DNA of 64,000 bases from Burkholderiales bacterium RIFCSPHIGHO2_12_FULL_69_20 (GCA_001770815.1 MESD01000019.1:15973-79972); one strand, 5' to 3'. Positions 37,327 through 51,829 are shown, counted from the stretch's first letter. Numbers and translations: made by a program. Notes: a model not told the origin generated them from the letters alone.

Positions 37327-40300
37327 ATGAAAGCAATGTCCATCGACGTGGCGGTGTCCACGTTCGGCGCTGCAGCCGCGGCCAAGCTGCGAAGTGCTGC
37401 GGCGGTCGGTCAGCCCGAAGACCAGATCCGCGGTCCGTTCGAGCGTTTGCTCGAAGACCTGGCGGCCCTGGGCGGCTTTGGCAAAGGCACGGTGGTCGCC
37501 ATCGGTGAGAGCATCGTCTCCGACCTGCGAACCCGGCCCGACTACGCCGTCACGGTGCATGGCGCATTGGTCGGCTTCATCGAGCTCAAGGCGCCTGGAA
37601 AAGGTGCCGATCCCCGCCGATTCAGAGACGTGCATGACAAGGCCCAGTGGCAGCGTCTGCAGTCGCTGCCCAACCTGATCTATACCGACGGCAACGAGTT
37701 CAGCCTGTGGCAGAACGGCCTACTGGCCAGTGCGGTGGTGCGCCTGCAGGGCGACATCGAAATCGACGGTGCCGCGCTGTTGCCGGCCCCGGGCCTGCAA
37801 GGGCTGTTCGACTTCTTCCTGCGGTGGCAGCCGATCGCGCCGCGTTCCGCCAAGGAATTGGCCGAGGTGAGCGCCAGGCTGTGCCGCCTGCTGCGCGACG
37901 AGGTGATCGAGGCGCTGGAACGCAAGACCGAGGCGTTGACCACGCTGGCGCTCGACTGGCGCGGCCTGCTCTTCCCCCAGGCCAGCGACGAGCAGTTTGC
38001 CGACGGCTACGCGCAGGCAGTCACGTTTGGCCTGCTGATCGCGCGGGCGCGAGGCATCACCATCGGCACCGATCTGCACAAAGTGGCCGAAGGTTTGAAG
38101 GACTCGGCCTCGCTGATCGGTGCCGCGCTGCAACTGCTGACCGACAACCAGGCCACCCGCCGGGCGCTCAACACCGCCCTCAGCACGCTGGAGCGTGTGC
38201 TCGACGCGGTGGACTGGCCCAGGATCAGCAAGGGCAAGGCCGATGCCTGGCTGTACTTCTACGAAGACTTCCTGGGCATCTACGACAACACGCTGCGCAA
38301 GGAAACCGGCTCGTACTACACGCCGCCTGAAGTGGTCGGCGCGATGGTGGCGCTGGTCGACCAGGCCTTGCAGCGCCCGGGCTTCGGCCTGCCGCGCGGG
38401 CTGGCCGACGACAGCGTGACGGTGGCCGACCCCGCCACCGGCACCGGCACCTTCGTGCTGGGCGTGCTACGGCACCTGGCCGCGCGCATCCATGAGGATG
38501 AAGGCGAAGGGGCCGTGCCGGCCGGCATCGAATCGGCGTTGAAGCGGCTGGTGGCCTTCGAGCTGCAGCTGGGGCCGTTTGCAGTGGCCCAGCTGCGCCT
38601 GCTGGCCGAGGTGGTGGCCTTGACCGGGGCGCTGCCCAAGGTGGCGCCACGCATGTACGTGACCGACACACTGAGCAACCCCAACGACGACGGCGGCAGC
38701 TTTCCCGGCTTCACCGCGGCCATTGGCCAGCAGCGGCGCGCCGCCAACCGCGTCAAGCGCGAGCAGCCCATCACGGTGGTCATCGGCAACCCGCCCTACA
38801 AGGACAAGGCCAGGGGCCTGGGCGGCTGGGTCGAAGGCGCCAGCCGCCTGAAGGGCGAGTACGCACCGCTCGACGACTGGCAGCCGCTGCGCGAGTGGGG
38901 CATGGGCGCCCATGCCAAGCACCTGCGCAACCTCTACATCTACTTCTGGCGCTGGGCCAGCCGCAAGGTGTTCGAGCCCTTCGACGGCCAGGCCGAGGGC
39001 GGTGGGCACGGCATCGTGGCCTTCATCTCGGCGGCGGGCTTCATCAGCGGGCCGGCCTTCGAGCGCATGCGCCAGCACCTGCGCGAGTGGTGCCACGAGA
39101 TCTGGGTGATCGATTGCTCACCCGAGGGCCACCAGCCCGAGGTGTCGTCCCGCATCTTCCAGGGTGTGCAGCAGCCGGTGTGCATCGTGCTGGCGGCGCG
39201 GCATGTGGGCACGCACAGGTCCGGGCCGGCGCAGGTGCGTTGGCGGGCATTGCCTGAAGCGCACCGCAACGCCAAGTTCGAGGCCTTGAAGACCTTGACG
39301 CTGAACGACACCGGCTGGCAGGACTGCCCGAGCGACGGGCGCGCGCCGTTCTTGCCGACAACGAGTCGTCAGTGGTCGCAATTCCCTCTTGTAGACGACC
39401 TGTTCGTCTACGGCGGCTCAGGAGTTCAACCGATGCGCGTGTGGGTAATTGCGCCTGATGCCGAGTCCCTGGCGTCACGTTGGCGGCGGCTGGTTGAGGC
39501 CCCAGCGGACCAAAAGCAGACCCTGTTCCACCCTACCTTGCGCGGCGGCCTGCCCGCCGACCGGCACATCGACTCCGTGGTCAGGGACCCCATTCCTGGC
39601 TACCCGCAGAACCTCCAGCCCGTCGCTGAAGACACGGGCGTTTGCCCGCCACCGCTCCGGTATGGCAGTCGATCGTTTGACCGGCAGTGGATCATTCCCG
39701 ATGCGCGCGTCATCACCCAGCCGAATGCAAATCTCTGGCGCGGGTTGTCGGAGCGGCAGGTTTTCCTGACCTTGCTGCATGATCGCCACCCCGGAAGTGG
39801 CCCCGCGACAACGTTTACGGGGCTGGTTCCGGACAAGCATCACTTCAAGGGCTCGTTTGGCGGGCGGGCATTTCCGCTGTGGACCGACGCGTCCTCGGCC
39901 CTCCCCAACCTGCGGTCAACGTTGGTGGCGCATTTGGCTGGCACCTTTGGGCAAGCCGTCGATGCCGAGGACCTCTTTGCCTACATCGCCGCCGTCACCG
40001 CTCACCCCGGTTATGGGCAACGCTTCGACCAAGACTTGGCCACTCCGGGTCTGCGCATCCCGCTGACCGCCGACGCCGCCACTTTCGCCGAAGCGGTCGC
40101 CCTCGGCCGTCGCGTGGTGTGGCTGCACACCTTCGGCGAACGCTTCGCCGACACGGCCGCCGATCGCCCGCCGGCCCCGCCGCGTCTGCCGGCGGGCCGC
40201 CGGCCCCAGGTGCCCAAGGGCGGCGCCATCCCACTCGACGCTGTGGGCATGCCCGATGTAATGAGTTACGACGCCGCGTTGCAGCGCCTGCACATCGGCA

Positions 40301-40698
40301 GCGGCTTCATCGAGCCGGTGCCCAGCGCCGTGTGGCACTACCAGGTGTCGGGCAAGCAGGTGCTGGTGCAGTGGTTCAGCAGCCGCAGGAAGAACCGTGA
40401 GCGCCCGCTGATCGGCGACCGTCGCCCGCCCTCGCCGCTGGGCGAGATCCACCCAGACTCCTGGCCGGCCGAGTACACGACCGAGCTGCTCAACGTGCTG
40501 AACGTGCTGGGCTTGCTGGTCGATCTGGAGCCGGCGCAGGCCGCGTTGCTGGAGCGCATCTGCACGGGGCCCTTGATCGACGATGCCACGCTGCGCCAGA
40601 CCGGGGTGTTTGCGGTGACCCAAGTACCGAAGCGCAAGGCCGCCCAAGCCTCGCACGGGCCTGACCTGTTGACCGATGTGCCGTCGCTGGGCGTATGA
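37327..40698 (+). CDS. Single-chain restriction-modification enzyme, type ISP/IIG-like (N-terminal nuclease, N6-adenine methylase, C-terminal specificity region)
   Basis: RPDYAVTVHGALVGFIELKAPGKGADP (PD-ELK), DPATGTGTFVLGVLRHL (motif I), VVIGNPPYKDKARGLGG (motif IV). Confidence 0.88.
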   Translation: MKAMSIDVAVSTFGAAAAAKLRSAAAVGQPEDQIRGPFERLLEDLAALGGFGKGTVVAIGESIVSDLRTRPDYAVTVHGALVGFIELKAPGKGADPRRFRDVHDKAQWQRLQSLPNLIYTDGNEFSLWQNGLLASAVVRLQGDIEIDGAALLPAPGLQGLFDFFLRWQPIAPRSAKELAEVSARLCRLLRDEVIEALERKTEALTTLALDWRGLLFPQASDEQFADGYAQAVTFGLLIARARGITIGTDLHKVAEGLKDSASLIGAALQLLTDNQATRRALNTALSTLERVLDAVDWPRISKGKADAWLYFYEDFLGIYDNTLRKETGSYYTPPEVVGAMVALVDQALQRPGFGLPRGLADDSVTVADPATGTGTFVLGVLRHLAARIHEDEGEGAVPAGIESALKRLVAFELQLGPFAVAQLRLLAEVVALTGALPKVAPRMYVTDTLSNPNDDGGSFPGFTAAIGQQRRAANRVKREQPITVVIGNPPYKDKARGLGGWVEGASRLKGEYAPLDDWQPLREWGMGAHAKHLRNLYIYFWRWASRKVFEPFDGQAEGGGHGIVAFISAAGFISGPAFERMRQHLREWCHEIWVIDCSPEGHQPEVSSRIFQGVQQPVCIVLAARHVGTHRSGPAQVRWRALPEAHRNAKFEALKTLTLNDTGWQDCPSDGRAPFLPTTSRQWSQFPLVDDLFVYGGSGVQPMRVWVIAPDAESLASRWRRLVEAPADQKQTLFHPTLRGGLPADRHIDSVVRDPIPGYPQNLQPVAEDTGVCPPPLRYGSRSFDRQWIIPDARVITQPNANLWRGLSERQVFLTLLHDRHPGSGPATTFTGLVPDKHHFKGSFGGRAFPLWTDASSALPNLRSTLVAHLAGTFGQAVDAEDLFAYIAAVTAHPGYGQRFDQDLATPGLRIPLTADAATFAEAVALGRRVVWLHTFGERFADTAADRPPAPPRLPAGRRPQVPKGGAIPLDAVGMPDVMSYDAALQRLHIGSGFIEPVPSAVWHYQVSGKQVLVQWFSSRRKNRERPLIGDRRPPSPLGEIHPDSWPAEYTTELLNVLNVLGLLVDLEPAQAALLERICTGPLIDDATLRQTGVFAVTQVPKRKAAQASHGPDLLTDVPSLGV

Positions 40699-40735
40699 CG
40701 CCCACGCGGCTCCGCCCTTGCGGCATGATGTGCCC

Positions 40736-41029
40736 ATGGACCGCGATACCGTCCTCGCCCTGCTGCGCGAACATCTGCCGGTGCTGACCGAGCGTTTCGG
40801 CGTGCAGCGTCTGCGCCTGTTTGGCAGCATGGCGCGTGGCACTGCGCGGCCCGACAGCGATGTGGACGTGTTGGTGGACTTTGGCCAGCCTGCCACGCCC
40901 GAAGCATTGTTTGGCACCCAGTTCTATCTTGAAGACCTGTTCGGTCGCGATGTCGATCTGGTGACGGAGCGTGCCTTGCGTCCGCAACTAAGACCGTATG
41001 TCGAACGAGACGCCATCGCCATTGCCTGA
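40736..41029 (+). CDS. MntA-like minimal nucleotidyltransferase antitoxin
   Basis: RLFGSMARGTARPDSDVDVLVDF (GSx10DxD). Confidence 0.9.
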   Translation: MDRDTVLALLREHLPVLTERFGVQRLRLFGSMARGTARPDSDVDVLVDFGQPATPEALFGTQFYLEDLFGRDVDLVTERALRPQLRPYVERDAIAIA

Positions 41030-41387
41030 GCGCGAGTGGCGCCTGTATGTGCGCGACATGGTCGAGTTCTGCGACCAGGTGCTGCTGTACACCGACGGTC
41101 ACAACCTGGAAAGCCTGCTCGCCGACCGCATGCGCCTCGACGCCACCATGCGCAACCTGGAGCTGATCGGCGAAGCCGCCACGCATGTGCCAGCGGCGGT
41201 GCGAGACAGCGCGCCAGACATTCCCTGGCGACAGGCCGTCAGCACACGCAACCGGCTGGCGCATGCCTACCTGACGATTGAACCGGAAACGGTCTGGCTG
41301 ATCATCACGCAGCATTTGCCGCCGCTGCGCGAACGTCTGGCGGCCCTCGCCGGCGACACCGGAGCCACTGGCGCGGGCAGGGATTGA
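40998..41387 (+). CDS. HepT-like toxin (DUF86 HEPN)
   Basis: RNRLAHAY matches the Rx4HxY motif; overlaps the MntA-like gene. Confidence 0.9.
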   Translation: MSNETPSPLPEREWRLYVRDMVEFCDQVLLYTDGHNLESLLADRMRLDATMRNLELIGEAATHVPAAVRDSAPDIPWRQAVSTRNRLAHAYLTIEPETVWLIITQHLPPLRERLAALAGDTGATGAGRD

Positions 41388-43266: not shown

Positions 43267-43581
43267 ATGCCCGATCTACTCGCCGCTCACCGCCACACGA
43301 CCAACAACCGGGCCGAGGTCGAGGCCAGCGCGCTCTGCGGCTGCTGCTATTGCATGCAGACCTTTCCGCCGTCGGAGATCGTGGCCTTCACCGGCCTGGA
43401 CATGGACAACCTCGATGATCCCGATGCGGCCGACGCGGAAACTGCCCTGTGCCCCCGGTGCGGCAGCGAATCGGTGATCGGCGACCGGTCGGGCTACAAG
43501 ATCAATGCCCAGTTTCTGGGCAACATGAACGAGGCCTGGTTCCAGCGAACCATCATCCACAAGCCCCGCCCCAAGCCTTAG
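43267..43581 (+). CDS. Small conserved cytoplasmic protein with Cys pairs (putative zinc-binding)
   Basis: CGCCYCMQTFPPSEI...ALCPRCGSESVIGDRSGYKINAQFLGNMNEAWFQRTI. Confidence 0.7.
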   Translation: MPDLLAAHRHTTNNRAEVEASALCGCCYCMQTFPPSEIVAFTGLDMDNLDDPDAADAETALCPRCGSESVIGDRSGYKINAQFLGNMNEAWFQRTIIHKPRPKP

Positions 43582-43609: not shown

Positions 43610-45973
43610 TCAGTGGCCCGGCCCGGCCGGCCGGCGCAGCACCCGCGTGCCGGCCAGCCGGTCGTGCAGCGTGCGGCGTTGCTGGCCGAAGAACATCGGC
43701 AGCCAGCCCAGCAGGCCCAGCCAGTAGCTGAAGAACTTGGCCAGAAAGCGCCGATAGCCGCGCCAGAAACCGATGCGCTGACCGTCGAGATCGGTGACCA
43801 CCAGGCCCATCAGCCGCTTGCCCAGCGTGGCCTGGCGCGCCGAGCGTGTGGATGCGGCCGACACGGCGCCCAGGATCGACACCACGGCCAGCAGCAGCCA
43901 GGCGTCGCGGACGTCGCTGTCCTGCGGCTTGACCCACTCGAGCTCGATGGCGATGCCCCAGGCAAACAAGGTCAGCACCAGGGCCAGCGCCAGGTCGATC
44001 AGCCCGGCCAGCAGCCGGCGCAGGTGGCCGGCGCGGGCGGCGGGGTCGACCGCCCAGGCCTGCGCCGCGCTGAGCGCCGGTGCGGTGGGCTCCGCCGGGG
44101 TCTCACCTGGTTGCGCCACGGCGGCCACCACCATCGGCGCGATCGGCACGGGCAGCGGCGGTGCGGCATCGGCGGCGGCGGCCACCTGCCGGCTGACCGC
44201 GGCGCGGGCGCGCTGCGCATGCAGCCGGCGCCCGATGGGCTCCAGCAGGTCGTAGGCCAGCAGCGCGGGCAGGCCGGCCAGCACATGCGCCATCAGTTCG
44301 ATGGCCACCTTCCAGCCGCCGCTGTGGGCGCCGCCCAACTGGTCGAGCCCAGCCGCCAGCTTGGCGCCACCCATCAGGTCGTCGATCTTGCGCGCCAGCA
44401 GCATCTGGCCGACGACGAACAGCACCGCCACCACGCCCATCACCGCAAAGCGCCAGCGGGTGCGCCAGAGGCGGTCGATCTCGGCCTCGGCCCGGGCGGC
44501 CAGCCGCACCTCGCGGCTGCGAAGGATGAAATCGTCCACCGCCTCGAAGTGGCCGCCGTACTGGGCCGCCCAGGCGGCGTTGGGCGCCGCGTGGCGCTGC
44601 CATTCCAGCGCCAGGTCGAGCTCGCGGTCGGACAGCAGCGCGGCGTCGTTGCGGGCGAACAGCGCGGCGCTCTCGGCCAGCCGGCGGTACTGGCGTGCGG
44701 CGGCGGCTTCTTCGTCGGCCCAGCGATCGAGCCGCTGCCACACCCGCATCAGGCTCTCGTGCGAGATGTCGATGCGGGTGTCGGGCGCCAGCGCCTCGCC
44801 TTCGGGCGGCATCAGGAACGAGCGGCTGCCCTTGCGGAACACCGCCATCACCGCCGTCAGCTCGGCCGCGCTGGCGCCGGTGATGGCGCCCAGGTCGGCC
44901 AGCGCGGTGGGCCGGCGGATGCCGCGCGCATCGGTGCCCTTGTCGGTGAGCGCGCGGAACACCCGCTGCGCCAGCTGCTGGCGCGCCGACAGTCCCGGCG
45001 GCGCGTCGGGCGCGGCCAGCTCGCCGAAGGCCTTCTCGGCATGCCGGTCGAGCGCGCCGTGCATGCCGCCGATGGCCTCGTAGTCGGCCAGCGCCAGCGG
45101 GCCGGTGGCGCCGCCCTCGTTCTCCCAGTGGTACCAGGTGCGGTTCAGCGCATGCTGCAGGATCGACAGCTGGTCGGGGTTGTCGCCCACGTCGTTGAGC
45201 AATCGTGTCAGCAGCACCGGGCTGACCTGCGCCTGCGCCAGGCTGGCCGGGCCGGTGATGGCCGCGCGGATCTCGTCGCGCGCCAGCCGCGGCACCAGGT
45301 ACTGGCCCTCGTTCATCACCTCGGGCAGGCCGTGGAACTGCGCGCAATCGCCCAGGTAATCCGAGCGCATGGTCAGCACCACGTGGATCGGCAGCGCGGT
45401 CTGGTCCACCGCCTCGAGCAGCAGCTTGACGAAGGCGGTGGCCTCGGGCCCGGGGCCGTGGGCGTGGCTGTGGTCGGCCACGTCTTGCCGGCCCTGGTAG
45501 CGAAACAGCTCCTCGAACTGGTCGACCACCACCAGCAGGTTGGTGCCGGCTGGCAGCCGCGCCTGGCGCACGATGTCGACCAGGCCCAGCCCGCTCATGC
45601 GCAGCGTGCCGCGCACCAGCTCCTCGGCGGTCATGCCATCGCCCAGCGATTTGGTGAACAGCACGTCGGGCACCGCCAGCGCCTGCGCCAGTGCGGTGAT
45701 CGGGTCGTGGCCCGGGCGGCAGGTGGCCATGCGCCAATCGGTGCCGGCACGCGCCATGTAGCCGCGGTGCAGCGCCGGGCGCAGGCCGCAGTTCACCAAC
45801 GACGACTTGCCGCTGCCCGAGGTGCCCACCACCGCCAGGAAGCGCCGCACCGCCAGCTTGTCGACCATGCGGTCGATCTGCCGCTCGCGGCCGAAGAACA
45901 GGTGCTCCTCGTCAGTGCGAAACGGCCGCAGGCCCGGGTAGGGGTTGCGCGTTGCGGTCGCAGCGTCAGCCAT
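43610..45973 (-). CDS. nSTAND1-type P-loop NTPase with C-terminal transmembrane segment and RDD domain
   Basis: NPYPGLRPFRTDEEHLFFGRERQIDRMVDKL, AVVGTSGSGKSSLVNCGLRPAL, LLVVVDQFEELFRY; C-term HLRRLLAGLIDLALALVLTLFAWG...QATLGKRLMGLVVTDLDGQRIGFWRGYRRFLAKF. Confidence 0.88.
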   Translation of the reverse strand: MADAATATRNPYPGLRPFRTDEEHLFFGRERQIDRMVDKLAVRRFLAVVGTSGSGKSSLVNCGLRPALHRGYMARAGTDWRMATCRPGHDPITALAQALAVPDVLFTKSLGDGMTAEELVRGTLRMSGLGLVDIVRQARLPAGTNLLVVVDQFEELFRYQGRQDVADHSHAHGPGPEATAFVKLLLEAVDQTALPIHVVLTMRSDYLGDCAQFHGLPEVMNEGQYLVPRLARDEIRAAITGPASLAQAQVSPVLLTRLLNDVGDNPDQLSILQHALNRTWYHWENEGGATGPLALADYEAIGGMHGALDRHAEKAFGELAAPDAPPGLSARQQLAQRVFRALTDKGTDARGIRRPTALADLGAITGASAAELTAVMAVFRKGSRSFLMPPEGEALAPDTRIDISHESLMRVWQRLDRWADEEAAAARQYRRLAESAALFARNDAALLSDRELDLALEWQRHAAPNAAWAAQYGGHFEAVDDFILRSREVRLAARAEAEIDRLWRTRWRFAVMGVVAVLFVVGQMLLARKIDDLMGGAKLAAGLDQLGGAHSGGWKVAIELMAHVLAGLPALLAYDLLEPIGRRLHAQRARAAVSRQVAAAADAAPPLPVPIAPMVVAAVAQPGETPAEPTAPALSAAQAWAVDPAARAGHLRRLLAGLIDLALALVLTLFAWGIAIELEWVKPQDSDVRDAWLLLAVVSILGAVSAASTRSARQATLGKRLMGLVVTDLDGQRIGFWRGYRRFLAKFFSYWLGLLGWLPMFFGQQRRTLHDRLAGTRVLRRPAGPGH

Positions 45974-47474
45974 GGCGCGCCGCCTCCAGCGCCGCCAGGA
46001 AGGGCTCGGCCAGCGCCGCGCTGAAGCCGTCCAGCCCGTTGATCAGCCCGGCCTCGCCGCGGTCGATGCGCTTGGTCTTGTCGAACGACTCGTCGGGCGC
46101 CAGCCAGGTGTGCACCGTGGTGATGGGCCGGCCCTGGCGCAGCGACGGCGCCTTGGCCACGTCGGTCAGCACGCTGGCGTACCAGTCCTTGGTGCCGGCG
46201 CCGTAGTACACCAGCACCGCGTCGCACTGCGCCAGGCGCTGCTCGTGCGCCAGGCGCGCGGCCTGGGCATCGGGTGCAAAGGCCGGCAGCCGCACCTTGC
46301 AGCCGCGCGAGGCCAGCCACTCGCCGATCGGATCGGCCGCATCGCTGTCACGCGGGTCGCAAACCAGGTAGACCAGCTTGCCGCCGCCCTGCACCGGCGC
46401 GGCCGGTGGCGGCGCCTCGATCTCGGCCAGCGCGTCGAGCGCGGCCTTCTTCACCGCCTGCAGGTCGGCGGTGATCAGCTCGCCGCCCTGCACCCGCGGA
46501 TCGGTGTGCAGCGCCTGGATGAACTGCTGCTGGCGCGCATCGCTGCCCTGCAGCCCGGCGGGCAGCGAGACGACGCGGCGCAATCCGCCGCCCTGGGCCC
46601 GCGCGGCCGATTCGGCGTTCTGCAGTTCCACCGCCGGGCGCTTGAGCGGGCCCTCGGGCACCCAGCCGCTGTCGTTGCCCACCAGGTGGATGGCCAGCGC
46701 GCAGCGCGACAGCGCCTCCTGCACCGCCTGGCGGTAAGCCGCCTCGCCACGCGGCAGCTCGCGGTCGGGCAGCACGCGGTAGCCGCGCACGGCCAGCTCG
46801 ATGGCCAGCTCGCTGCGGTCGGCGCTGCGGTCGTGGTCGCACTCGGCCAGGTAGACGGCCGGCTTGGCCGGGCCGGCGTCGGCCGCGCTCTGGTCGTTGG
46901 CGGCCTCGGACTCGAGGTCGTTGATCAGCGAAGTCAGGTGGAAGGCCAGCGTCATGATCTGGTCGATGTACTTGGCCCGCGACTCCTTGCCGAAGTCGGG
47001 GTCGAGCTCCTTGGGCGCGTTGTCGGCATTGCGCTCGAAGAAGTTGTAGCCGGTCATCTCGCGCATCACCGCCGGCAGTGGGTCGAGTGTGGCCGGCGGC
47101 GCCTTGAACACCTTGAACACACGCGACTTGTTGTCGCGGGTCAGGCCGCCGGTCTGCTCGGCCGCCTCGCAGAAGGCCTGGGCCTCGTCGCGGCACCACT
47201 TCGAGGCCACATAACCTTCGCTGACCACGGCCAGCAGCACCGCCGATTCAGGCAGCCTGGCCATGATCTCGGGCGTGAACACGTCGTTGCCCTGCAGCCG
47301 CTCGTCGCGCCAGATCTCGGGCATGCGGCCCAGCCGCTGCTCCAGCACCACGCCCAGCGTCTTGTGGAAGCGGCTGACCCAGCCCTCGGCATCATTGAGC
47401 AGCGGCTTGTTGTCCTTGTGCGTGTAGCTGATGAACAGGTGGCGCTTGAAGCGCATGGGGCGGCCCTCGGTCAT
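45966..47474 (-). CDS. Protein with apparently three TIR-like domains (N-terminal TIR with SxWCxxE)
   Basis: RHLFISYTHKDNKPL...LLAVVSEGYVASKWCRDEAQAF; VYLAECDHDRSADRSELAIELAVRGYRVLPDRELP...CALAIHLVGNDSG; LVYLVCDPRDSDAADPIGEWLASRGCKVRLP...CDAVLVYYGAGTKDWY. Confidence 0.82.
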   Translation of the reverse strand: MTEGRPMRFKRHLFISYTHKDNKPLLNDAEGWVSRFHKTLGVVLEQRLGRMPEIWRDERLQGNDVFTPEIMARLPESAVLLAVVSEGYVASKWCRDEAQAFCEAAEQTGGLTRDNKSRVFKVFKAPPATLDPLPAVMREMTGYNFFERNADNAPKELDPDFGKESRAKYIDQIMTLAFHLTSLINDLESEAANDQSAADAGPAKPAVYLAECDHDRSADRSELAIELAVRGYRVLPDRELPRGEAAYRQAVQEALSRCALAIHLVGNDSGWVPEGPLKRPAVELQNAESAARAQGGGLRRVVSLPAGLQGSDARQQQFIQALHTDPRVQGGELITADLQAVKKAALDALAEIEAPPPAAPVQGGGKLVYLVCDPRDSDAADPIGEWLASRGCKVRLPAFAPDAQAARLAHEQRLAQCDAVLVYYGAGTKDWYASVLTDVAKAPSLRQGRPITTVHTWLAPDESFDKTKRIDRGEAGLINGLDGFSAALAEPFLAALEAARHG

Positions 47475-48612: not shown

Positions 48613-51600
48613 TCAGTGGTCGATGCGCACGATGGTCGGGTTGGGCATGCCCGCGGCGCCGCCGTAGGCAATCGAGCCCAGGTACTTGGTGCCGGCGGCC
48701 AGGCCGCTGGTGCTGATGCCGATGGCCGCGGTCTGGCCCATGACGGCCGCGGCGGGCGCCGTGACGGTCATGTTGCCGGCATCGGCCGAGCCCAGCACCC
48801 AGCTGTGCAGCGTGAACGGGCTGGATCCGACCACGCCCCAGCCCTGCACCACCACGGTGTAGGTGTCCGCGGCCGGATTGCGCAGGTTCACCTCTTCGGC
48901 CGAGGTGCCACTGCCACTGGCCCCCACCAGCGTGCCGGCGCTGTTGAACACGCACAGGTCGATGTCGGCCCCGGCGCTCACGTCTGCATCGAACAGCGCG
49001 AAGCGCGCGTAGGTCGTGCCGGCGGGCACGCTGACCGGCACCAGCTGGGCGTTCGGCGAGCTCAAGGCGCAGGTGCCGTCGGTCGGATCGTCGGCGACGG
49101 TGTTGGCCGTCAGCACCGCGGGCACCAGGCCACGCGCCGCGGCGGTGAAGGGGCCGTCATAGCCGAAGGTGACGCTGTAGGCGCCACCGACCTGGACCGG
49201 TGCGGCCAGCGCCACCGGCACCACCACGATCGGCAGGCGCACGTTGTGCAGCCCGTCGCTCAGCGTCAGCTGGCCGCCGGTGTAGGCGTTCAGTGCCGCG
49301 GTGGTGCGGGTGATGGTGATCGTGATGTCCTTGGTCTGCCCGGCGGCCAGCACCAGCGGCGCTGGACTCACCGAGACGCTGAAGCCCGCGGCAGCGTACG
49401 ACGCCGCGTAGGTGGCCGGGTTGCCGCCCACGTTGGTGACCCGGCGCTTGACCGTCTGTGAACCCGGCAGGGCGCCGATCGCGATCGACGCCATGTTCAG
49501 GTCGCTGGGGTTGAGCACCGGAATACCCGCCGAGGTGCAGAAAGAACTGGGCAGTTGTGTGCCGCACAGGAAGCCCAGCCAGTCGGCGTAGCCCGAGTCG
49601 AACACCAGCCCCGGGTTCATCGCCTTGTTGGGCTGAACGTGGCCGGCGCCCTGGCGGAAGATCAGCACCGGGTTGTTGCTCGGGGCGGGTGTGCCACCGT
49701 CGAGCACGTCACTGCCGGTGGTCATCAGCGCGGACTTGATCGCCATCGGCGACCAGTTGGGGTAGCGCTGCTTGAACAGCGCGCCCAGGCCGGCCACATG
49801 CGGGCTGGACATCGAGGTGCCGCTGTACAGGTCGAACAGCTTGCCGCCGTTTCCGGGAGGCGCCACGCCGGCCAGGATGTCCTGCCCCGGCGCGATCAGG
49901 TCGGGCTTGAGCAGGTTGCCGCTGGCCGCCAGCGGGCCGCGTGACGAGAAGCTGGCGGTGAACGGCGCCGCTGCCGTCAGCACCACGCTGGCGCGGTTGA
50001 CCGTGGCCGTGGCACCCGCCGTGGCGGCATAGGCCTTGACGGCGGCGCGGTCGGTGTCTCGCAGGTGCACGCTTGGCAGGGCATGCAGGTCGGCGTTGAT
50101 CGAACCGGGCGCGACGTTCACCAGCACCATGCCCAGGCCGCCGGCCTCCTTCACGGCCAGGCTCTTGTTGACGCGGGCGCTGACGCCACGGTCGCACAAC
50201 ACGATCTTGCCGGCCACCACGGCCGGGTCGAGCACCGGCGCGGTGACCGTGCGCAGTACCACCGTCCCGTCGGCGTTGAGGTACTCGTCGCCGGGGCGCA
50301 GGCACAGCGCAACGTCCAGCGGCACCGCGCCGGGCAGGCCCGCCTGGGTCGAATCGATGAAGGGCAGCGGACCGACGCCGGTGAGTGTGGCCATCGAGGC
50401 CCCGCTGTAGGTGGCGGCATTGCCCAGCGTGGCCGATCCGGCGCCATCACGGTTGTGGGTGCCGGCCGCCACCGTGGTCAGCCAGGGGCCGGGGTGGGCC
50501 ACGGTGCCGCTGGTCGGACCACTGTTGCCCGCGGACGCGGCGACGAAGACACCGGCATCGGCGGCGTACAGGAACGCGATCTCGACCGGATCGCGGAAGT
50601 TGGTGCGCGAGCCGCTGATCGAGTAGTTGATGACATCGACGCCGTCGGCCACGGCCTGGTCGATGGCGGCCAGCAGGTCGACGCCCGAGCACGAGCCGGC
50701 GGTGCCCGGCACCGACCAGCAGGCCTTGTAGGCGGCAATGCGCGCGCGCGGCGCGATGCCGTTGGTGCTGCCCAGCACGGCCGCGGGGCCGCTGGTCGCC
50801 ACCTTGGCATTGCCGCCGGCCGTGCTGGCGGTGTGGGTGCCGTGGCCGTTGTGGTCACGCGGCGAATTGAATTCGAACGGCAGGTCGGCATCGATGCCGG
50901 CGTTGCCACCGAAGCCGGCGTTGTAGAAGCGTGCGCCGATCAGCTTCTGGTTGCAGTGGCTGGCAGCAAAGGCTTCACCGGGCTCGCACTTGCCATGCCA
51001 GCCGGGAATCTGCTGGTACGACAGCTTGCCGTCCTTGCTGGCATTGCCATTGGCGCCGGTGCGGTCGGAGAAGCTCGGGTGCTCGGGCCAGACACCGCTG
51101 TCGACGATGCCGATGATGACGCCTTCGCCGGTGGCGCCGGTGCTGTTCCAGAGGCCGCCGGCGCCGCTGAGGCCCAGGAAGTCCGGCGTGGTGGCGGTGT
51201 CGACGCTGCGGAACTCGTCCTTGGTCACGGCCAGCACGCCGGGCAACTGCGCCAGCTTCTGCGCCTGCGCCGGGGTCAGGTCGGCCGCAAAACCGTTGAA
51301 GGCGTAGCCGTAGTTGTAGTGCTTCTTGCCCGCGCCGACACGGGCCAGCGCCGCGCTCTGTCTGGCGGCCAGGTAGGCCATGTAGTTGACGACGGCCGGC
51401 GCCTTCGGATTGATCTTCTTGCCCTTGCCCGGCTTGGTGGCGGCATAACCCTTGATGCCGCCCTGGTAGGCGGTGACCGGCATGTCGGCCATCTGCACGA
51501 TGTAGGCCGAGTTGGTGGGGGCGGCGCGCCCCTTGGCCTGGGCCGCCGTGGGGGCGGCGCCGACCGGCAGCGCGACGGTGCCGAGGCCGATCGCCGATAT

Positions 51601-51645
51601 GAGTAACGCCAGGCTCAATGGCCTGGCCAACTGCTTGATGCGCAT
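48613..51645 (-). CDS. Secreted S8-family subtilisin-like serine peptidase with PA-like and Fn3-like C-terminal regions
   Basis: GIVDSGVWPEHPSF (Asp), GHGTHTASTAGG (His), YSGTSMSSPHVAGLGALF (Ser); signal peptide; RBS AAGGA before ATG at 51645. Confidence 0.93.
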   Translation of the reverse strand: MRIKQLARPLSLALLISAIGLGTVALPVGAAPTAAQAKGRAAPTNSAYIVQMADMPVTAYQGGIKGYAATKPGKGKKINPKAPAVVNYMAYLAARQSAALARVGAGKKHYNYGYAFNGFAADLTPAQAQKLAQLPGVLAVTKDEFRSVDTATTPDFLGLSGAGGLWNSTGATGEGVIIGIVDSGVWPEHPSFSDRTGANGNASKDGKLSYQQIPGWHGKCEPGEAFAASHCNQKLIGARFYNAGFGGNAGIDADLPFEFNSPRDHNGHGTHTASTAGGNAKVATSGPAAVLGSTNGIAPRARIAAYKACWSVPGTAGSCSGVDLLAAIDQAVADGVDVINYSISGSRTNFRDPVEIAFLYAADAGVFVAASAGNSGPTSGTVAHPGPWLTTVAAGTHNRDGAGSATLGNAATYSGASMATLTGVGPLPFIDSTQAGLPGAVPLDVALCLRPGDEYLNADGTVVLRTVTAPVLDPAVVAGKIVLCDRGVSARVNKSLAVKEAGGLGMVLVNVAPGSINADLHALPSVHLRDTDRAAVKAYAATAGATATVNRASVVLTAAAPFTASFSSRGPLAASGNLLKPDLIAPGQDILAGVAPPGNGGKLFDLYSGTSMSSPHVAGLGALFKQRYPNWSPMAIKSALMTTGSDVLDGGTPAPSNNPVLIFRQGAGHVQPNKAMNPGLVFDSGYADWLGFLCGTQLPSSFCTSAGIPVLNPSDLNMASIAIGALPGSQTVKRRVTNVGGNPATYAASYAAAGFSVSVSPAPLVLAAGQTKDITITITRTTAALNAYTGGQLTLSDGLHNVRLPIVVVPVALAAPVQVGGAYSVTFGYDGPFTAAARGLVPAVLTANTVADDPTDGTCALSSPNAQLVPVSVPAGTTYARFALFDADVSAGADIDLCVFNSAGTLVGASGSGTSAEEVNLRNPAADTYTVVVQGWGVVGSSPFTLHSWVLGSADAGNMTVTAPAAAVMGQTAAIGISTSGLAAGTKYLGSIAYGGAAGMPNPTIVRIDH

Positions 51646-51829
51646 GGAAGTTCCTTGGTTGATGTGGGTGGTCATCCACCAGCGACGGCGGCTGCTTGAC
51701 CTCGGCCGACGTGAGGAGCCACTCGACCCTGCGGACAGGCGGCTTGATGACGCATCGGCTCATTAGACAGGTCGGCGCTTTGGTGCGGTACGTCGTGATT
51801 TCCCTGCTTTGAGGGGATCGGGAGGGAAC

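Follow-up and report, generated by a model that had tools for sequence, protein, structure and literature searches.

In this study we focus on a two-gene locus on the minus strand of a 64,000-nucleotide stretch of DNA (hereafter the window) from Burkholderiales bacterium RIFCSPHIGHO2_12_FULL_69_20. The upstream gene encodes a protein with three TIR-like domains, the downstream one an nSTAND1 NTPase with transmembrane (TM) segments and a C-terminal RDD domain, and the two overlap by 8 nt (45966-45973, ATGGCTGA). An earlier note, made from the sequence alone, had proposed a candidate immune operon at this place; its coordinates, strand and overlap proved correct. The features of the locus are as follows.

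45966..47474, minus strand: TIR protein gene (502 amino acids; alternative start at an ATG 6 codons downstream)
47157..47435, minus strand: TIR domain 1, predicted NADase (residues 14-106; Pfam TIR_2, 3.4e-12; PDB profile matches)
47184..47186, minus strand: codon of E97, predicted catalytic Glu of SKWCRDE (near-invariant column; aligned with the RUN1 Glu)
46419..46862, minus strand: TIR-like domain 2, DUF4062-like (residues 205-352; DUF4062 in relatives; alignment)
46065..46391, minus strand: TIR-like/Rossmann-like domain 3 (residues 362-470; profile similarity to domain 2)
43610..45973, minus strand: nSTAND1-TM-RDD protein gene (787 amino acids; 8-nt overlap with the TIR gene)
44645..45943, minus strand: nSTAND1 NTPase domain (residues 11-443; Pfam PF20703, E=8.1e-94)
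45800..45826, minus strand: Walker A, GTSGSGKSS (residues 50-58; homologue alignment)
44393..44449, minus strand: membrane helix after nSTAND1 (residues 509-527; hydropathy; same place in 23/25 homologues)
43649..44032, minus strand: RDD membrane domain (residues 648-775; Pfam PF06271, 3.3e-19; PADLOC PD-T4-6)

The N-terminal TIR domain with its SKWCRDE motif, already recognised in the earlier note, matches Pfam TIR_2 (E=3.4e-12) above the curated cut-off, and the motif ends in E97. A family profile of 17 relatives, searched against the PDB, matched RUN1 (2.5e-11), AbTIR (5e-8) and Cat1 (2.7e-8), as well as RPV1, L6, RPP1, Roq1 and SARM1. E97 lies in a nearly invariant column of the alignment of these 17 relatives, the Glu of the C-x-x-E motif is present in all members of the family inspected, and in the family profile alignment E97 is aligned with the corresponding Glu of this motif in the plant TIR RUN1. 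The RUN1 entry 7s2z has an Ala at this position, which we take to be a catalytic mutant. TIR domain 1 is predicted, from these sequence features, to be an NADase. The gene is under purifying selection, with 45 synonymous and 11 non-synonymous codon differences.

The further TIR-like segments mentioned in the earlier note are real. In relatives, domain 2 matches DUF4062 above the curated cut-off at three loci (L027, L028 and L035; L038 is slightly below), and DUF4062, as recent work has shown, is a family of TIR-like NADases (PMC13174449). The Glu near the presumed catalytic position of domain 2 is not conserved across the family alignment, and the domain is therefore probably not catalytic. 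Domain 3 resembles domain 2 at the profile level (hhalign E 3.5e-4), gives weak TIR_2/ThsB_TIR matches in L035 and L038, and matches designed Rossmann-type folds in the PDB. Both domains apparently lack a conserved catalytic Glu.

The downstream protein matches the nSTAND1 family PF20703 with 315.8 bits (cut-off 27.1) and carries the Walker A GTSGSGKSS and the Walker B VVVDQFEELF. Across 23 homologues there is no change in the Walker A residues, the Walker B Asp or the FEE-F motif. A profile of the nSTAND1 region searched against the PDB gave P-loop matches only and no solved nSTAND1 structure. The earlier note held that its reading would fall if the prediction of TIR or STAND domains failed; both profiles score above their cut-offs. 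Hydropathy places TM segments at about residues 509-527 and 556-574 and the RDD helices at 658-676 and 688-706, and the RDD match itself reaches 70.0 bits (cut-off 24.1). In PADLOC, the RDD part also hits the C-terminal portion of the PD-T4-6 model (6.6e-10). RDD has been described as an integral membrane domain whose role is not known, and it is reported to have a conserved binding site within the membrane that faces the cytoplasm (PMC12419801).

Of 25 proteins, 23 have a hydrophobic helix after nSTAND1; Lys and Arg are in excess on its N-terminal side in 21 of these, and the other two show a tie. Following the positive-inside rule, the nSTAND1 domain is thus predicted to lie in the cytoplasm and the C-terminal part outside it.

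The gene-neighbour search that the earlier note had proposed as a check revealed a conserved two-gene unit. Relatives of the TIR protein were found in 13 of 400 genomes of the same family and in 3 of 399 genomes of a phylum sample, and a search with the STAND protein in a same-family genome sample returned 21 relatives. All intact TIR relatives have an nSTAND1 gene immediately downstream, in the same orientation; at the loci examined the two genes mostly overlap by 4 nt, and elsewhere the gap is at most 11 nt. Six nSTAND1 matches first seen without a TIR match (L069-L074) also adjoin a TIR gene, and the pair is present in other families of the class and once elsewhere in the phylum (L096-L099 and L104). 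In total, a TIR gene followed by nSTAND1 occurs at about 27 loci, the window included, a few of which (L038, L070, L096 and L097) are cut short or carry frameshifts in draft contigs; with this degree of conservation the pair is not due to chance. The distances of TIR1 and nSTAND1 are correlated over 23 loci (r=0.91; 0 of 5000 permutations as high), which speaks for a partnership. A 98% identical copy on a contig of an Aquabacterium sp. metagenome-assembled genome (L005) likewise comes after oxyR.

The genome of the window contains a second pair. Contig C165 (start of L038) begins inside TIR domain 2, and contig C34 (end of L036) stops after TIR domain 1 of a similar protein. Since the two fragments cover L027/L028 in complementary fashion, they are probably one TIR gene split by the assembly. 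The STAND protein of this second pair has a C-terminus without a recognised domain.

More distant nSTAND1 relatives from the same bacterial family carry fused effectors (L075 and L076), which indicates that the TIR gene stands at the place of the fused effector. As for these two loci themselves, L075 (7544-10555, minus strand) encodes a single-chain TIR-nSTAND1-FGE protein, a fused counterpart of the window pair, and L076 (3765-10304, minus strand) encodes two tandem caspase-nSTAND1 proteins of about 1010 and 1167 amino acids.

The part of the protein beyond the membrane helix varies between relatives. It is a WD40 region in most nSTAND1 proteins, TPR in L035 and L104, RHS-like in L039, RDD in the window protein and L026, and unrecognised in L025, L038, L040, L069, L072 and L074; the scan left out L071 and L073, close relatives of L072 and L074. 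On the tree built from nSTAND1, L025, which has no RDD, branches as sister to the window protein (support 100/99), and the distribution of RDD needs at least two separate changes on well-supported branches. This shows that the C-terminal module has been exchanged. Moreover, the C-terminal part diverges faster than nSTAND1 in 8 of 8 close pairs. Between the window protein and L005, for example, 16 of 446 residues differ in nSTAND1, 17 of 100 in the segment 540-645 and 14 of 128 in RDD.

The TM segments and the RDD domain noted earlier are present, whereas the suggestion that RDD perturbs the membrane finds no general counterpart, as relatives carry WD40, TPR or other regions at its place. RDD is for that reason not a constant part of the system, and it reads as one interchangeable sensor or anchor option. 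An effector role for RDD was considered and rejected on account of the relatives without it. What stands of the operon reading is the conserved two-gene unit with its active-site TIR, intact STAND NTPase and membrane-bound partner; RDD as a fixed component has to be dropped.

TIR/STAND conflict systems have been described (PMC8195603, PMC10907252), and the two-gene membrane version is a new variant of the known TIR/nSTAND1 kind. The nSTAND1 domain was named for STAND-FGS proteins that have effectors, TIR included, or EAD adaptors (Kaur et al. 2021, PMC8195603). These TIR-nSTAND1-FGS/FGE or EAD-linked proteins and the window pair have in common nSTAND1, linked to a conflict effector of the TIR type, and a variable C-terminal sensor. 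In the window, however, the effector has an upstream gene of its own, which encodes three TIR-like domains, and the nSTAND1 domain is followed by a conserved TM helix. Pfam reports no EAD adaptor in the window proteins, and domains 2 and 3 may act in its place. STAND sensors diversified by diversity-generating retroelements, some with predicted periplasmic parts, have also been reported (PMC10907252), as well as a membrane-associated two-gene EACC1/caspase system (PMC7159879).

Avs/AVAST proteins are similar in combining an effector, often an NADase or nuclease, with a STAND NTPase and a variable C-terminal sensor, but their effector belongs to the same chain and their sensors of phage proteins are cytoplasmic, whereas in the window family all paired loci encode the effector separately from the NTPase; the PADLOC matches listed for either window protein include no Avs model. 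Thoeris (ThsB TIR and ThsA) is also a two-gene system with a separate TIR gene, but the partner in the window is a STAND NTPase and not ThsA, and the matches are weak and stay far below the Pfam and NCBIfam cut-offs (ThsB_TIR, 13.8 bits against 21.2; ThcB4, 15 against 220). Domain 2 belongs near the DUF4062 TIR-like NADase Swarozyc (PMC13174449). Swarozyc, in contrast, unites the NADase and an auxiliary sensor domain in one protein, and the window domain shows no conserved Glu where the catalytic residue is presumed to lie. TIR1 matches the NCBIfam model FxsC_Nterm (1.4e-11), named for the FxsC protein of FxsA/FxsB radical-SAM cassettes, and an FxsB-like radical SAM gene upstream of the divergent relatives L073 and L074 is a further likeness to FxsABC; the window protein scores 44.7 bits against the FxsC cut-off of 130, and no radical SAM or peptide gene is found beside the window pair. 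As the earlier note had supposed, the combination appears to be undescribed: the PADLOC and NCBIfam models gave no match to a known system, and no account of a separate triple-TIR gene with a membrane nSTAND1 was found in the literature searched, whose scope excluded subscription journals and most preprints.

The genes of the window are arranged in the order Type ISP/IIG restriction enzyme, MNT/HepT pair, prfC, TIR/nSTAND1 pair and oxyR, the restriction enzyme and the MNT/HepT pair being about 2-10 kb from the TIR/nSTAND1 pair. The Type ISP/IIG restriction-modification enzyme is at 37327-40698 (plus strand) and is followed by the overlapping MNT nucleotidyltransferase and HepT-like (HEPN) genes at 40676-41387 (plus strand). 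Of seven relatives checked, six have oxyR and prfC on one contig (in G012 they are on different contigs), and in those six the interval holds other variable genes and never the TIR/nSTAND1 pair, so that the pair was probably gained at the window locus. An insertion between oxyR and prfC is likely, albeit not a precise one, and none of the six has a clean empty site between the two genes. Read by eye, the neighbours of the relatives are mostly ordinary metabolic or housekeeping-like genes. The system is patchy, chromosomal and not bound to islands.

We propose, with modest confidence, that the operon is a two-component membrane conflict system in which a membrane nSTAND1 protein activates a separate triple-TIR NADase. 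The nSTAND1 protein would be anchored in the inner membrane with its NTPase in the cytoplasm, and its exchangeable C-terminal part, in the window RDD and the extra helices, would monitor the membrane or envelope. A cue, most likely phage or another envelope attack, would cause nucleoside triphosphate exchange and oligomerisation of nSTAND1. The oligomer would then recruit the triple-TIR protein by way of TIR-like domains 2 and 3, which appear not to be catalytic, and the TIR1 copies thus brought together would form an active NADase, the loss of NAD+ leading to growth arrest or cell death.

The sequence shows the domains, the active-site residues, the conserved operon, the place of the TM helix, the exchange of modules and the faster evolution of the C-terminus; the NADase activity, the contact between both proteins, the trigger and the immune outcome are inferred. 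A number of points weigh against this proposal. The topology is predicted from hydropathy and charge, and it would be unusual for WD40 propellers to lie outside the cytoplasm. The correlation of the TIR1 and nSTAND1 distances comes in part from shared descent. The profile similarity between TIR1 and TIR2 is marginal (hhalign E 0.05). Furthermore, the single-sequence AlphaFold prediction of the TIR protein was poor, with a predicted local distance difference test (pLDDT) of 41 and a predicted template modelling score (pTM) of 0.24. PADLOC matches (E<=1e-10) were found in just 2 of 70 neighbours of relatives, a count that has no random-region baseline and that weakens the defence-island argument. 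No copy was found in phage or plasmid collections (tblastn) or in viral contigs (IMG/VR scans), and the patchy, chromosomal distribution outside islands weakens an antiphage role.

Some of these points would suit a different use of the same machine, in programmed death, kin recognition or envelope stress, where the cue would be another cell nearby, a toxin acting on the envelope or damage to the membrane. The variable sensors are predicted to be extracytoplasmic, matches to defence models are few among the neighbours of relatives, relatives are absent from the phage, plasmid and viral sets searched, and for related STAND systems the recognition of non-kin has been put forward as an alternative role (PMC10907252). 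We nevertheless regard such a use as rather unlikely, given that the TIR/STAND pairs studied experimentally are antiphage and that a Type ISP restriction enzyme and an MNT/HepT pair are near the window copy. It is improbable that the TIR protein acts by signalling and not by NAD+ depletion, making an ADP-ribose-type messenger for another protein, possibly the RDD or membrane part, which would then perturb the membrane as in the earlier note. Thoeris-type TIRs do make messengers, and both the cytoplasm-facing intramembrane site of RDD and the match to PD-T4-6 would fit. However, the same TIR protein accompanies WD40, TPR or other regions in relatives, so RDD is not a general messenger target, and no recurring third gene is seen beside the pair. 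The chromosomal position between oxyR and prfC and the housekeeping genes often surrounding the relatives could also point to a regulatory or other everyday role in the cell that has nothing to do with conflict. This is very improbable for a pair present in just 13 of 400 family genomes and 3 of 399 of the phylum sample, missing from the oxyR-prfC interval of six relatives, which holds other genes, and endowed with an exchangeable, fast-evolving sensor part.

In most bacterial NLR-like immune proteins that have been studied, effector, switch and sensor belong to one cytoplasmic chain. The novelty of the membrane STAND/TIR system proposed here would be that the effector is split off, with two apparently inactive TIR-like domains as possible adaptors, and that the switch is fixed in the membrane with exchangeable, fast-changing sensors. 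Tentatively, such pairs could form a transmembrane NLR-like receptor class, in which exchangeable sensors (propellers, TPRs, RHS-like, RDD), lying in the inner membrane or beyond the cytoplasm, detect envelope attack and drive a cytoplasmic nSTAND1 oligomer that engages a separate three-TIR adaptor/NADase. If true, this would be a case of STAND immunity that senses the envelope, with an RDD domain in the role of a sensor.

Two divergent TIR and nSTAND1 pairs (L073, 2715-9676; L074, 3255-10162) come after an open reading frame (ORF) resembling an extracytoplasmic function sigma factor, a short stretch of NW repeats (NWNNWNNW..., at about 4290-4370 in L074) and the FxsB-like radical SAM gene, and are possibly a version of the TIR/nSTAND1 system linked to ribosomally synthesised and post-translationally modified peptides. 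In the window, a large S8 subtilase with I9, PA and fn3-like domains is encoded between oxyR and recG (48613-51675, minus strand), and a Cys-rich, zinc-ribbon-like ORF of 104 amino acids without a Pfam match (43267-43581, plus strand) is convergent with the STAND gene.

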